Source of the DNA: Chitinophaga pinensis
GTDB taxonomy: Bacteria; Bacteroidota; Bacteroidia; Chitinophagales; CAMDFR01
Length of the DNA stretch: 40,878 nucleotides
NCBI GenBank assembly: GCA_945860705.1
Contig: CAMART010000028.1
Span: 1 to 40,878 of the forward strand
Reading direction: 5' to 3'
Shown here: positions 11,363-40,878 of the stretch, in pieces
Numbering within the stretch: the stretch's first letter is position 1
How the letters are laid out: every line of letters starts with the position of its first letter
The notes under the pieces: generated by a model
Seen by the model: only the letters and a program-made list of their open reading frames with translations
What the model was told of the DNA's origin: nothing
Databases searched by the model: none
Made by a program: the position numbers and the translations under genes

Positions 11363-12403
11363 ATGGATAAAATATTAATAACCCAAGAAATCATAACCGA
11401 GTTAAAGCTCAAAATAAAAGAGCAACATAAAGACACCTATAAGTATGCTAATCAAATTTATAATACATATGATAAGTTTGGTGACTTTAGTTTAATAACT
11501 CAGTTTACCATTTTATATTCAAGAGTATTAGGCATATATAAATCTAATTATGAAAAATCAATAGATGTATTAAATAAAATAAAAAGAAATGAACGACTAA
11601 CAGAGTGCCCATTAGTTTTAATAGCAGAAGTTGATTTTTATCTTGGTTATAGTCATCAATATTTAGGAAATTTTATAGATTCTTTTATCTGCTATAATAA
11701 TGCCATTCAAAACTTTGAGAAAATAGATTTTATAAAACCAAACGAAGAATTAAACATAGCAAATGCACTTATTAATATCGTTGCTCTTCATAAATTGAAT
11801 GACTATGAAGAATATGACAAAAAGGATGTGAGCAAAGCATTAAGTATCTATAAAAAACATAAAGCAAAATTTGGTATCCCAGGTTGTTACAATCTTTATG
11901 CTGCATTTAGCCTACATAATAAGAACTATAAAGATGCCATGATGTATGCTAAAAGAAGTTTGAGTCTTTGTATTGAATTGAATAATGAAATTTATACTAG
12001 TGTATGTTTTTCTAATATTGCCAATATCCATGCATTAACAGGAGAATTTGATAAAGCATTTTTATACATGAAGAAATGTCAAAATATAATTGAAAAATAT
12101 AATAACGAATTTCATAATGCTCTATTTGATAAAAATTTAGCAGACATATATTCACTAAAAAATGATTTAAAAAAAACCATAACACACTATAGAAAAGCTC
12201 TTGATTTTTTTGAAGCAAAAGGAAACAAAGATATATTATTAGAAATATACAAAGGACTTACTGAAATATACGTTAAGACAAATCAATACAAGAAAGCGTT
12301 TATGTTTCAACAAAAATATTTAGACATAAAACAAAGCATTTTTAAATTTGATAAATTAAGTGCACTTTATAAAAATAACTCTAAGATATTAGAAAATCTA
12401 TAA
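11363..12403 (+). CDS. TPR protein, kinase-less paralogue of the next gene
   Basis: This 346-residue protein is almost all helical TPR-type repeats, with no signal peptide or membrane segment, so it is cytoplasmic. It aligns end to end with the TPR half of the next protein: ITQEIITELKLKI against ITDELLDLVTQKI at the start, and FDKLSALYKNN against FDKETALINNK at the end. It stops just where the neighbour enters its coiled coil and kinase. It is thus either a truncated duplicate or a sensor-only partner. TPRs mediate protein binding; the ligand is not known. It has its own probable promoter. Confidence 0.8.
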   Translation: MDKILITQEIITELKLKIKEQHKDTYKYANQIYNTYDKFGDFSLITQFTILYSRVLGIYKSNYEKSIDVLNKIKRNERLTECPLVLIAEVDFYLGYSHQYLGNFIDSFICYNNAIQNFEKIDFIKPNEELNIANALINIVALHKLNDYEEYDKKDVSKALSIYKKHKAKFGIPGCYNLYAAFSLHNKNYKDAMMYAKRSLSLCIELNNEIYTSVCFSNIANIHALTGEFDKAFLYMKKCQNIIEKYNNEFHNALFDKNLADIYSLKNDLKKTITHYRKALDFFEAKGNKDILLEIYKGLTEIYVKTNQYKKAFMFQQKYLDIKQSIFKFDKLSALYKNNSKILENL

Positions 12404-16141: not shown

Positions 16142-16171
16142 TTGGGATAAAACTCTAAATCCTTATCTTTG
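16141..16171 (+). promoter_or_regulatory. glyS promoter (Bacteroidota type)
   Basis: TTTG at 16141-16144 and TATCTTTG at 16164-16171 match the -33 and -7 consensus exactly, with 19 nt between. The ATG follows 4 nt after the -7 box, so transcription should begin at or next to the start codon. Confidence 0.75.
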
Positions 16172-34041: not shown

Positions 34042-34063
34042 AAAAAACCGAGTTGCCCCGGTT
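34042..34063 (-). terminator. tracrRNA terminator hairpin
   Basis: AACCG (34063-34059 on the minus strand) and CGGTT (34050-34046) enclose an 8-nt loop, followed by a run of six T. The hairpin also serves as the 3' stem-loop of the tracrRNA. Confidence 0.8.
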
Positions 34064-34115
34064 TAAATGTTTTCACAACGGAATAATCCTTATTGTGAAT
34101 TGCTTTCAAATTGTA
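34042..34115 (-). ncRNA. tracrRNA of the type II-C CRISPR system
   Basis: On the minus strand, 34115-34093 is a 23-nt perfect match to part of the CRISPR repeat (it includes TTTGAAAGCAATTCACAA) and forms the anti-repeat. It is followed by AAGGATTATTCCGTTGTG, the usual nexus-like part of Bacteroidota tracrRNAs, and by a hairpin with arms AACCG/CGGTT and a T run. Predicted size is about 74 nt. It would pair with the first half of the repeat as transcribed from the minus strand, guiding RNase III processing and Cas9 binding. The 5' end is inferred from the -7 box at 34119-34126. Confidence 0.9.
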
Positions 34116-34118
34116 AAA

Positions 34119-34149
34119 CAAATATAATATTTATTTTTCACAATGCAAG
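34119..34149 (-). promoter_or_regulatory. tracrRNA promoter
   Basis: TATATTTG (34126-34119) is an exact -7 element; CTTG (34149-34146) is a 3-of-4 match to the -33 box with 19-nt spacing. Transcription would start at about 34112-34115, at the first base of the anti-repeat. Confidence 0.65.
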
Positions 34150-34169: not shown

Positions 34170-34177
34170 TATATTTG
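34170..34177 (+). promoter_or_regulatory. -7 promoter element of the cas operon
   Basis: TATATTTG matches TAnnTTTG and lies 42 nt before the cas9 ATG at 34220. No good -33 box at 19 nt is seen. It diverges from the tracrRNA promoter with 43 bp between the two -7 boxes. Confidence 0.5.
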
Positions 34178-34219: not shown

Positions 34220-34330
34220 ATGAAAACAATTTTAGGATTAGACCTAGGTACAAATAGTATTGGCTGGGCATTGATAAAGCAAAATTTCGAAAACAAAAAG
34301 GAGAAATTAGTGGAATTGGAAGTCGAATAA
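34220..34330 (+). CDS. cas9: Cas9 N-terminus with RuvC-I, out of frame with the rest
   Basis: From the ATG at 34220 the frame encodes MKTILGLDLGTNSIGWALIK, the standard Cas9 start with the RuvC-I motif and catalytic Asp8, then ends at TAA 34328-34330 after 36 codons. After FENK the true protein sequence (KGEISGIGSRIIPM) continues in the frame of the downstream long reading frame. Adding one A to the A5 run at 34295-34299 joins both into a 1526-residue Cas9. So this piece is the displaced 5' end of cas9, not a separate gene. Confidence 0.85.
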   Translation: MKTILGLDLGTNSIGWALIKQNFENKKEKLVELEVE

Positions 34331-34335
34331 TTCCA

Positions 34336-37300
34336 ATGTCGCAAGATATACTAGGAAAGTTCGACAGCGGAGTTTCTATATCACAAACAGCCGAACGTAC
34401 TGCATTTAGAGGGGTTAGAAGATTAAGAGAAAGACATTTACTACGTAGAGAAAGATTACATAGAGTTTTAAATATTTTAAAATTTCTACCTGATTATTAT
34501 GCGTCTCAAATTGATTTTGAAAAGCGACTAGGACAATATAAGAGTAACACAGAACCTAAATTAGTTTATGATGAACAAAATCAATTTATATTCAAAAAAT
34601 CTTTTAATGAAATGGTTGCTGAGTTTAAAAAATCACAACCACAATTATTTTATAATAAAACTAATGGAAAAGAAACTCTCATTCCTTACGATTGGACAAT
34701 TTATTATTTAAGAAAAAAAGCATTATCTGTTAAAATAGAAAAAGAAGAACTGGCTTGGTTACTTTTAAACTTTAACCAAAAACGTGGCTATTTTCAATTA
34801 AGGGGAGAAGATGAAGCAGAATTTCCTAACAAAAAAGTAGAATTTCATTCATTGAAAGTTATCGATGTTACAGCTGATGAGCCTCAAAAAGGGAAAACAG
34901 ATATCTGGTATAATATAATTTTAGAAAATGGATGGATATATAGACGTGCAAGCAAACTAGCTTTATTTGATTGGAAAAATAAGATTAAAGAGTTCGTAGT
35001 TACTACTGATTTGAATGATGATGGAACAGATAAAACTGATAAAGATGGAAAAGTTAAACGTTCATTTAGAGCGCCAGCAGAAACCGATTGGACTTTAGTA
35101 AAAACTAAAACAGAACAAACCATTGATAAATCTAACAAAACAGTTGGGCAATATATTTATGGCACTCTTTTAGAAAATCCTACACAAAAAATCAATGGTA
35201 AACTAGTTCGTGTTATAGAACGTAAGTTTTATAAAAAAGAATTAGAACAAATATTAAAAACGCAACTAAAGTATCACGACGAACTAAAAAATTTAGAATT
35301 ATATAACGCTTGTATTGAAGAGTTGTATGAACATAACGAGGCACATAGAAACAATATAGCTAAAAGAGATTTTGTACATTTATTTTTAAATGATATTATT
35401 TTTTATCAACGACCATTAAAAAGCAAAAAATCTTTGATTAGCGATTGTAAATTTGAAAGTAGAAAGTATATTAAAGATGGAATAGAGCAAAATGAAGCAT
35501 TAAAATGCATTACGAAATCTCATCCATTATTTCAAGAATTTAGGCTCTGGCAATGGATACAAAACCTACATGTTTTTGAAAAAGAAAATAATGATACACC
35601 TATTACAGAAAAGTTTTTAAAATCAGAAGATGATTTTGTAAAATTGTTTGATTTTTTAAATGATAGAAAGGAAATAGAACAAGAAGGTTTAATTAAGTTT
35701 TTACTTTCTCCATTAAATTTAAAACCAAAAGAGCTTAAATTAGAATCTGCAAAATATCGTTGGAATTTTGTAGAAGACAAAGCATATCCTTGCAATGAAA
35801 CAAGAGCATTAATGCTTACCAAATTGGAAAAATGCACTAGCATTCCTAATGATTTTTTAAGTAAAGAAACTGAAGAAGCCTTATGGCATATATTATACTC
35901 TGTAAATGATAAGGAAGAAATAAAATCAGCTTTAGGTAAGTTTGCACATAAGCATCAATTAAGTAATGATTTTGTAGAGCAATTTATGAAGCACCCTCCT
36001 TACAAAAATGAATACGGAAGTTATTCATCTAAAGCAATTAAAAAATTATTACCTCTTATGCGAATGGGTAAATATTGGAATGAGGAAAACATACACCCAC
36101 AAACTAAGAACAGAATTGAGAAAATAATTACAGGTGAATTTGATGATAGCATTAGAAATAGAGTAAGAGAAAAAGCGTATAAGCTTAATGATATTAATCA
36201 TTTTAGAGCATTTCCACTATGGTTGGTTAGTTACGTAGTATATGACCGACATGCAGAAGATGGTAATTTAGAAAAATGGAAAACACCTGAAGATTTAGAA
36301 AATTATTTAAGATCGTTTAAACAACATTCTTTAAGAAATCCAATCGTAGAACAAGTATTAACTGAAACACTACGAGTTGTTAAAGACATTTGGAAACATT
36401 ATGGATATAGCAAAGAAAACTTCTTCGATGAAATTCATATTGAACTAGGTAGAGAAATGAAAAACCCAGCTGATAAACGTAAGAAGATGACAGAGCAAGT
36501 TACTACTAATGAAAACACTAACTTACGTATCAAATCATTATTAGCTGAAATGATTAATTTTAAAGATGTTGAGAATGTTAGACCACATTCACCTATGCAA
36601 CAAGAAATTCTAAAAATATATGAAGATGGGGTTTTAAATTCTGGTATTGATATAGATGAAGATATTCTAAAAATAAGTAAAACAGCACAACCAAATAAAG
36701 CAGATTTATTGCGTTATAAATTATGGTTAGAGCAACGATATAAATCTCCCTATACAGGCGAAATAATACCATTAAATAAACTGTTTACTCCTGCTTATGA
36801 AATAGAACACATTATTCCACAAAGTCGATATTTTGATGATTCATTTAGCAATAAGGTAATTTGTGAAAGTGAGGTAAATAAAGATAAAGACAACTGTTTA
36901 GCATTTGAATATATTTCGAATAATGAAGGAAAAAAAATTGAATTAAGTGTAGGGAAATTTGCAACACTATTTACTACTGAACAATACGAACAGTTTATTA
37001 AAACCAATTATGCAAAAAATTATAGTAAGGGTAAAAAATTGATGCTATTAGATATTCCGGAGAAAATGATTGAGCGTCAAATGAATGATACTAGATACAT
37101 AAGTAAAGAAGTGAAAAATCTATTGTCAAAAATTGTTAGACAACAAAATAATGATGAAGGTACAACAGCCAACAATTTATTAAGTACTAACGGACAAATA
37201 ACATCTGCATTAAAACAAGATTGGGGTTTGAATGAAATCTGGAACGAGCTTATAGCTCCTCGTTTTGAGCGATTAAATGAAATGACTAATTCTAGAAATT

Positions 37301-38795
37301 TTGGAGATATTAATCCTAATACCAATAAATTTTTACCAACTGTTCCATTAGAATTGCAAAAAGGATTTAATAAAAAACGTATTGACCATAGACATCATGC
37401 TTTAGATGCTTTAGTTATTGCATGTGCTACACGAAATCATATAAATTATCTCAACAATCAAAATGCTTTAGATAAAGATAAAAAGAAAGGTCAAGAAACA
37501 AGAGAGGATTTAAAAAGAACCTTATGTGACAAAAAATATAATGCTGACTCAGAAAAAAATTATCGTTGGATTTTTAAACAACCTTGGGATACTTTCGTAT
37601 TAGATGCAAAACATTCATTAGATACTACCATTATTAGTTTTAAACAAAACTTACGTGTAATCAATAAAACCGTGAATAAATATGAAAGTTATAAAAATGA
37701 GGATGGTACATTAAGATTAGATGAAAATGGTAAACCAGTAAAAGACATAATAAAACAAATCAAAGGTGATAGTTGGGCTATTAGAAAACCTTTACATACA
37801 CCAATGCCTTATTCAGAAAATAAATATCAATTTGATTTCCTTAAAATAAGTGAAAATTTAGGTAAAACATCATTAATAATCAATTTAGAAATTAAAGATA
37901 AAGTAATTTCACTACTAAACTCAAATGGTAATAAAATTGGATTAGTTCAAAAAATTCTAAAGTCAAATCCAATAGTTGCTAATAACGGGAAAACTGTAAT
38001 TGAAACAGAATACAAAATTAATAATACAAAATTCAGAAAGAGAAAACCTATAACAGATTTAGCAAATAGGAGTAGCCAAGGAGGAATCACATCATTAGAC
38101 GCAATGCTAAAAATATTAAATAAAATTTATGATTTTGAATTGAAAAAGCAATTATTTAAACATTTAGAAATTAATGGTAATGATATTGACAAAGCATTTT
38201 CAATTGAAGGAATTGAACGTTTTAATGAATTAAGAAAAATACCAGTTTACAAACTTCCGATAGCAGAATCAAGTTCAGAAAAATTTCGCATTTCAGAGAA
38301 TAATCGGAAAAGACATATGTTTTTTGAAGCAGAAAAAGGTACAAACTTATTTTTTGCTATTTATAAAGATGAAATTGGAAAAAGAAATTTTATAACTATT
38401 CCATTTAATGAAGTAGTAGAAAGCCAAAAACAAAGTGCTACATTAAATCAAAAACCTCAAAGTGTTCCACTTAAAAATGAAAAAGGAGAAGATTTAGTTT
38501 TTCATCTTTCGCCAAACGATTTAGTTTTCGTTCCTTCTAAAGAGGAAATAGAAAATCCTAATTTAGTTGATTTTAATATATTAAATAAAGAGCAAGTAAA
38601 TAGAATTTATAAATGTGTAAGTTTTAGTGGTGCTGATTGTTTTTTTGTAAGAAATGATATCGCAAGTTCTATTGTAAATAAAGTTGAATTTTCAACATTA
38701 AATAAAACTGAAAGAAGCTTTGAGGGAACTCAAATAAAATCATGTTGTTGGAAGCTAGGTGTAGATAGATTAGGCAATATTACAAAAGTAATAAA

Positions 38796-38799
<4 letters not shown>
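34336..38799 (+). CDS. cas9: Type II-C Cas9 (frame lacking RuvC-I unless frame is restored)
   Basis: Cas9 is the crRNA/tracrRNA-guided DNA endonuclease. The long frame (1487 residues from this ATG) has the Arg-rich bridge helix (FRGVRRLRERHLLRRERLHR, residues about 24-43), RuvC-II with Glu703 in HIELGRE, HNH with His825 in EIEHIIPQS and SNKV downstream, and RuvC-III with His1021 and Asp1024 in HHALDALV. A PAM-interacting C-terminus follows. RuvC-I and the true start (34220) are in another frame, one base off. If only this frame is made, RuvC is dead and the enzyme could at most nick through HNH. The frame is open upstream only to 34258 and has no standard start before 34336. Cas1 overlaps its stop by 4 bp. 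Confidence 0.93.
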
Positions 38800-40050
<1,251 letters not shown>

Positions 40051-40052
40051 AT

Positions 40053-40086
40053 AATAAAATCCTACCTCATAGGGTAGGATTTTATT
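40053..40086. terminator. Two-way terminator between cas2 and the CRISPR array
   Basis: AATAAAATCCTACC (40053-40066) and GGTAGGATTTTATT (40073-40086) form a perfect 14-bp stem with a 6-nt loop, 2 bp after the cas2 stop. Both ends are T/A-rich, so it can stop the cas transcript from the left and the crRNA transcript from the right. Confidence 0.8.
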
Positions 40087-40157: not shown

Positions 40158-40878
40158 GTTGTTTATCAATACGTCAAAGATACAATTTGAAAGCAATTCA
40201 CAACGAATAATAGAACGGTCAAATATTAAGCAAAGTTGTTTATCAATACGTCAAAGATACAATTTGAAAGCAATTCACAACATTTAATTTATCTAATAGT
40301 TCAGCTATTTGTTGTTTATCAATACGTCAAAGATACAATTTGAAAGCAATTCACAACAACTTCATCTCTCTCAAATAAGCTATTAAGTTGTTTATCAATA
40401 CGTCAAAGATACAATTTGAAAGCAATTCACAACTGAATTGTTGGCTAGATACTACTCCAATTGTTGTTTATCAATACGTCAAAGATACAATTTGAAAGCA
40501 ATTCACAACTTGGTCAAGCATCGTGTTGTTATGCATATAGTTGTTTATCAATACGTCAAAGATACAATTTGAAAGCAATTCACAACTGTCCTCTACTATT
40601 ATCTTATTCATAACCTGTTGTTTATCAATACGTCAAAGATACAATTTGAAAGCAATTCACAACTATTTTGAAGAGGTAAAATTGTTATAATCGTTGTTTA
40701 TCAATACGTCAAAGATACAATTTGAAAGCAATTCACAACAAAACTAATAAAGCAATAGAATTTAATAAAGTTGTTTATCAATACGTCAAAGATACAATTT
40801 GAAAGCAATTCACAACTAGGTAGAAAAAACGATTTAACATGTAATTGTTGTTTATCAATACGTCAAAGATACAATTTG
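40158..40878 (-). CRISPR. Type II-C CRISPR array, ten 47-bp repeats (last one cut by the edge)
   Basis: Repeats start at 40158, 40235, 40311, 40387, 40463, 40540, 40617, 40693, 40770 and 40847; the last shows 32 of 47 bp. All appear identical. Nine spacers of 29-30 bp separate them and all differ. Pairing to the tracrRNA shows that crRNAs come from the minus strand, so the leader and newest spacers lie past the right edge and the cas2 side is the old end. In that sense each repeat starts GTTGTGAATTGC, has TATCTTTG at positions 23-30, and ends AACAAC. I could not match any spacer to this window by eye. Targets are unknown. Confidence 0.98.

Follow-up and report, generated by a model that had tools for sequence, protein, structure and literature searches.

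Putative Bacteroidota-type promoters within the repeats of a type II-C CRISPR array

Each repeat of the type II-C CRISPR array described here very probably carries, to judge from its sequence, a promoter of the sigma-ABfr type, recognised by the primary sigma factor of Bacteroidota, and each guide RNA would probably be made separately. The -33 element would be the TTG of the GTTG that opens the repeat, and the -7 element would be TATCTTTG at repeat positions 23-30, with the tracrRNA-pairing stretch (about positions 2-24) filling the interval between them. Because the sigma-ABfr consensus is centred on -7 (PMC7366714), RNA polymerase is predicted to start at repeat position 34-37, about 4-7 nt past the box. 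The primary RNA would then consist of a repeat tail of 10-14 nt, one spacer and the next repeat, inside which tracrRNA and RNase III would cut. Transcription would head to cas2, against the cas operon, and the newest spacers would need no leader promoter if the array has Riemerella-like polarity.

The locus and its repeats

The window, that is the whole stretch of 40,878 nucleotides analysed here, is an entire contig (C28) of a draft genome of 2.94 Mb. The locus is of type II-C, with cas9 (TIGR01865; 34220..38799), cas1 (TIGR03639, type II; 38796..39722) and cas2 (TIGR01573; 39712..40050) on the plus strand, a tracrRNA gene upstream of cas9 on the minus strand, and neither csn2 nor cas4. The tracrRNA gene comprises an anti-repeat that matches repeat positions 2-24 (34093..34115) and a terminator hairpin followed by a T-run (34042..34066). 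The reading frame of cas9 is broken near 34300. Its RuvC-I segment (34220-34328; MKTILGLDLGTNSIGWAL...) and its main ORF (34336-38799, 1487 aa) are in different frames, the break lying near an A-run (34220-34342). The break is either a genuine mutation or a sequencing error; in the former case, this strain may have an inactive locus.

The array (40158..40878) contains ten repeats of 47 nt separated by spacers of 29-30 nt. The repeats start at 40158, 40235, 40311, 40387, 40463, 40540, 40617, 40693, 40770 and 40847. All ten are identical, the last one being truncated by the contig end, and the complete repeats read GTTGTGAATTGCTTTCAAATTGTATCTTTGACGTATTGATAAACAAC on the minus strand. The anti-repeat sets the minus strand as the crRNA strand, opposite to the cas genes. 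Copies of the array's repeat also take up the end of a second contig, C5, of this genome (134952-135808). The array thus extends onto C5, with a total of at least about 20 repeats. Between cas2 and the array, where no ORF of at least 90 aa is found, stands a strong hairpin (40054..40086; -17.1 kcal/mol, z -5.6) that has T-runs on both strands; it is probably a terminator for two converging transcripts. An Rfam search of the window returned nothing, and comparison of the array with phage records gave no match.

The original prediction located a TAnnTTTG box and a GTTG in every repeat, on either side of the tracrRNA-pairing half. This arrangement is confirmed. TATCTTTG is found, as an exact match, at positions 23-30 of all ten repeats, always on the crRNA (minus) strand (40175..40182 in the cas2-adjacent repeat; left ends at 40252, 40328, 40404, 40480, 40557, 40634, 40710, 40787 and 40864 in the others). 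GTTG occupies positions 1-4 of every complete repeat (40201..40204, minus strand, in the cas2-adjacent one). Its first letter is G and not T, so that the proposed -33 element matches through a TTG placed 18 nt before the box and not through a full TTTG. The pairing stretch, which spans about positions 2-24, does sit between the two elements. In shuffled 47-mers an exact TAnnTTTG occurs in 5.3% of cases, and in 0.25% with a TTG 17-21 nt upstream as well. Chance is not negligible for a single repeat, and the significance of the box rests on the comparison across repeats.

Elsewhere in the window, TATCTTTG has a single plus-strand copy (16164-16171) and, apart from the array, a minus-strand copy at 12226. 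The plus-strand copy is the one that had been claimed as a -7 box before glyS. It is present, but only 4 nt ahead of the ATG. The ORF concerned is a 511-aa class-II tRNA synthetase ORF, and its transcript would be leaderless or nearly so, unless the start codon lies further downstream. A related box, TATATTTG, is found on the minus strand just ahead of the anti-repeat (34119..34126), as the -7 element of a proposed tracrRNA promoter with a TTG at 34146-34148 (gap 19). The same TATATTTG lies upstream of cas9 on the plus strand (34170..34177) and is the probable -7 box of the cas promoter.

The host uses the -7 consensus in its own promoters. In a sample made of 400 kb of its genome plus the window, TAnnTTTG reaches a density of 2.93/kb upstream of genes versus 0.83-1.03/kb in coding sequence, an enrichment of about threefold. 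It is found in 88 of 202 upstream regions, mostly less than 60 nt from the start codon. The spacing of TTG relative to these host boxes is weakly visible, with 10 cases at gaps 19-21 versus 5.6 expected and one at gap 18.

Enrichment, conservation and spacing among Bacteroidota repeats

Type II-C loci were picked by Cas1, with protein or TIGR03639 searches, so that the box was not favoured by the choice. Arrays were located by script and the repeats were oriented by their tracrRNA-pairing signature, blind to the box. After filters, 190 arrays gave 137 distinct Bacteroidota II-C repeats, which fall into 73 clusters according to their 3' part. An exact TAnnTTTG after position 16 is present on the crRNA strand of 44 of the 137 repeats, versus a mean of 2.0 in shuffles, and in 27 of the 73 clusters versus 1.2. 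On the opposite strand of the same 137 repeats there is none, nor is there any on either strand of 34 type I-B/I-C repeats from the same phylum. TAnnTTTG is the most frequent pattern of the shape XXnnXXXX in the repeat tail (27 clusters versus 1.4 expected). The contiguous TCTTTG is somewhat commoner (32), because some families retain GATCTTTG, GTTCTTTG or TTTCTTTG. The array is antisense to the cas genes in all but 6 of the 190 loci. In L013/L072, L019/L078 and L208 the pairing signature sets the crRNA strand codirectional with cas1; no exact box is present in L013 or L019, and TAnnTTAG is all that the L208 consensus shows.

Conservation of the box relative to its flanks was measured in 23 pairs, each made of a box-bearing repeat and the nearest other repeat, which was not selected for the box (1-8 differences per pair). 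Changes affect 2 of 92 positions in TTTG, 1 of 46 in TA, 4 of 46 in the free nn and 37 of 182 in the tail. Expressed along the repeat, this corresponds to 3% of positions 1-16, 15% from position 17 to the box, 2% for TA, 9% for nn, 2% for TTTG and 20% for the tail (TTTG versus tail, P = 1e-5). The order of the change rates is unchanged at wider divergence. As the original prediction would have it, the flanks vary more than the box does. In near relatives, substitutions in TA and TTTG are about ten times rarer than in the adjacent tail. Three repeats of one genus, GTAATTTTG, GTAGATTTG and GTAGTTTTG, illustrate this, since their differences within the box are confined to the free positions. Pairing with the tracrRNA mostly stops at positions 22-26 and cannot therefore account for the TTTG. 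Judged by these substitution patterns, the box is maintained by selection in many relatives. Constraint of this kind at equal divergence argues against a reading in which transcription of the array comes from a single promoter outside its old (5') end, or from read-through, with the box a functionless inheritance from a common ancestor. We consider this reading unlikely; the evidence on its side comes from the Cas1 tree and from the oldest repeats, and is discussed below.

The spacing of the two elements was compared with that of tracrRNA promoters. Of 101 loci, 40 have a TAnnTTTG in the 40 nt that precede the anti-repeat, versus 2.1% of control windows, and most of these boxes stop 2-5 nt short of the anti-repeat. 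A TTG stands at gap 19 (9 cases) or gap 20 (12 cases) in 21 of 41 such promoters, with 1.2 expected per gap; gap 18 is also seen, 19-20 being preferred. The gap of 18 in the source genome is slightly under this optimum. In most repeats, the TTG of the GTTG is found 18-21 nt ahead of the box. Where the box is shifted to repeat positions 30-32, a second TTG is found at positions 9-11, 18-20 nt upstream. Altogether, 23 of 27 clusters have a TTG at 18-21 nt, versus 8.2 under random box placement, in clusters that are not wholly independent. A box that slides and keeps its distance to a TTG also speaks against functionless ancestry.

Motifs inside the repeat steer integration in some systems. The conserved block could accordingly serve not as a promoter but as a recognition motif or ruler for Cas1-Cas2 when spacers are integrated, the more so as the repeat ends, GTTGT...ACAAC, are conserved in any case. 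Yet the distance from the box to the repeat end ranges from 4 to 17 nt, when a ruler should fix it. Moreover, the motif coincides with the promoter consensus of the phylum and is present at tracrRNA genes, where Cas1-Cas2 does not use it, and related Cas1 enzymes act on repeats that have no box. We regard this explanation as very improbable.

Within the promoter reading, the -7 box may suffice on its own, the GTTG being a by-product of the need of the integrase for GTTG at the repeat end. Several points go in this direction. No -33 motif could be found in Flavobacterium johnsoniae (PMC7366714), TTG is weakly placed upstream of the host boxes, and the eroded oldest repeats retain the box and usually lose the TTG. 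Against it stand the TTG at gap 19-20 of the tracrRNA promoters and the second TTG at positions 9-11 that precedes the boxes at 30-32 by 18-20 nt. A promoter reduced to its -7 box is thus conceivable, and we find it rather doubtful.

Array polarity, oldest repeats and distribution of the box

At the 5' end of the array on the crRNA strand, located on C5, the repeats are degenerate, whereas those on the cas2 side are perfect. This designates the C5 end as old and the cas2 side as young. We infer from this arrangement a Riemerella-like direction of spacer acquisition in the source genome; in Riemerella, the young end was placed at the cas2 side by experiment (PMC6008519). With this old-to-young order, crRNA transcription would be directed at cas2, and a leader promoter on the cas2 side could not serve. 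A promoter in each repeat would explain how new cas2-adjacent spacers are expressed when transcription runs toward the leader.

The first relic on C5 retains ...CAAATTGTATCTTTGACGTATTGATAAA, that is the box and the tail, and its tracrRNA-pairing 5' part is gone. It is divided from the second relic by a perfect hairpin, TCTCGTC-AATAAA-GACGAGA, with no spacer (L009 8960-9025, corresponding to C5:134959-135024), and the repeat that follows the hairpin is without its first nucleotides. In L181, L224 and L108, similar GC hairpins stand where the oldest repeat would have its 5' half. In other loci too, the first repeats are often eroded from the 5' side, with box and tail left, in agreement with the published erosion pattern of II-C first repeats (PMC12080349). 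The -33 TTG of these eroded repeats is mostly lost, 1 of 16 keeping a TTG at 18-21 nt. Some relics are altered only at the free nn of the box (L212, TATATTTG; L216, TAGCTTTG). Erosion was considered as a proof of selection and rejected: across 25 variant copies, changes fall in the box and in the tail at similar rates (9 of 150 versus 13 of 223 positions, no difference), and a gradient of decay from the outside in fits equally well.

This lack of sparing of the box in degenerate repeats counts in favour of functionless ancestry combined with transcription from beyond the array, as does the fact that, in the source genome, the crRNA strand of the array can be entered only at its oldest repeat, on C5. 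Weighing on the other side, hairpins or terminators immediately upstream of the first repeat have been published for II-C arrays (PMC12080349), and on C5 the first two relics have a hairpin between them. The same reading draws further support from the Cas1 tree, where the box label shows strong clustering: 13 changes account for it, at least 7 of them on well-supported branches, versus 34 for shuffled labels. The sequence clusters are therefore not fully independent. The presence of a box in the repeat is associated with that of a box at the tracrRNA (P = 0.006), and the association is gone after pairing on the tree.

The box is a trait of many, not all, Bacteroidota II-C repeats and is near-universal only in Bacteroidales. 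With records assigned to groups by their titles, 22 of 26 Bacteroidales arrays have the exact box (21 tabulated plus L176, for which the opposite strand of the array was read), another 3 carry TTAG or TTCG and 1 has none. The exact box is absent from the 7 Chitinophagaceae arrays, 5 of which have TTAG, from the 6 Sphingobacteriaceae arrays and from the 4 arrays of Ignavibacteria and Melioribacter. Among 36-nt repeats, 4 of 30 have it. TAnnTTTG is used elsewhere in the genomes that have box-free arrays, so that expression of these arrays would proceed by other means or from a weaker site.

TAnnTTAG and TAnnTTCG were considered as equivalent boxes and not retained, since the regions upstream of genes show no clear excess of them in the hosts whose repeats bear them (0.5-fold for TTAG). 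Close to their 3' ends, the Chitinophagaceae repeats L158, L169, L183, L218, L219 and L221 show TA(G/A)CTTAG and then (C/T/A)TCTT, and TTAG gives no promoter signal in those hosts. Repeats of the Sphingobacteriaceae type (L154, L155, L161, L166, L173, L201 and L215) have no TAnnTTTG. They retain TTCTTTG at positions 18-24 and AC(T/C)GATATT at 29-37, a second conserved element; GATATT also terminates many 36-nt repeats (e.g. L148).

Comparison with known repeat and phylum promoters

The elements proposed here derive from the Bacteroides sigma-ABfr promoter, which has TTTG at -33 and TAnnTTTG at -7 (PMC7366714). In comparison, the array has an exact -7 box and a TTG at 18 nt, with GTTG replacing TTTG, and the pair is iterated in all repeats. 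We lean slightly towards a broader reading, in which the 46-48-nt II-C repeat of Bacteroidota, chiefly Bacteroidales, would be a composite of a sigma-ABfr promoter interleaved with the tracrRNA-pairing stretch. Transcription would start inside the repeat, primary crRNAs would bear a 5' repeat tail of 10-14 nt, and the repeat would owe its extra length to the promoter.

Within the phylum, a repeat promoter was proposed in Flavobacterium columnare from a TTG 33 bp upstream of the spacers and eight reads (Hoikkala 2021, PMC8092290). The same TTG proposal was made in 2023 for F. psychrophilum, where TAnnTTTG was noted for cas9 only (PMC10309648). Our proposal shares with these a TTG near the repeat start as -33 element and transcription toward the variable end. 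The Flavobacterium proposals named TTG alone (33 or 35 bp upstream of spacers) and no -7 box, whereas both elements are found here; in our comparative set, the 36-nt repeats ending in GATATT have no TAnnTTTG. A study of Riemerella found no promoter in the repeats (PMC5006608). The array of Prevotella intermedia was treated as leader-driven (PMC5608340); the repeat printed in that paper contains, on the crRNA strand, TATCTTTG with a TTG 19 nt upstream. In the accessible portions of the open-licence literature that treats TAnnTTTG together with CRISPR, none places the box in repeats. As far as these portions go, the -7 box in repeats seems not to have been described before, nor do its conservation and spacing; the principle of a repeat promoter was already known. 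The box supplies the missing half of a promoter for the II-C arrays of a major gut phylum.

Repeat-borne promoters are established for the II-C system of Campylobacter jejuni and for that of Neisseria meningitidis, as described in the same work (Dugar 2013, PMC3656092). In C. jejuni, an extended -10 element, GGTAAAAT, lies at the extreme end of the repeat and the RNA begins at spacer position 5 (PMC3656092). The present array resembles both systems in being II-C, in having a promoter element in the repeat and a tracrRNA that pairs with the 5' half of the repeat, and in the use of one start per spacer unit, which is here predicted from the sequence. Unlike them, it has a sigma-ABfr type TTG/TAnnTTTG pair placed mid-repeat, in repeats of 47 nt, and a predicted start within the repeat. 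A promoter in the Bacteroidota repeat thus suggests that two distinct sigma consensus sequences have been built into II-C repeats in separate phyla.
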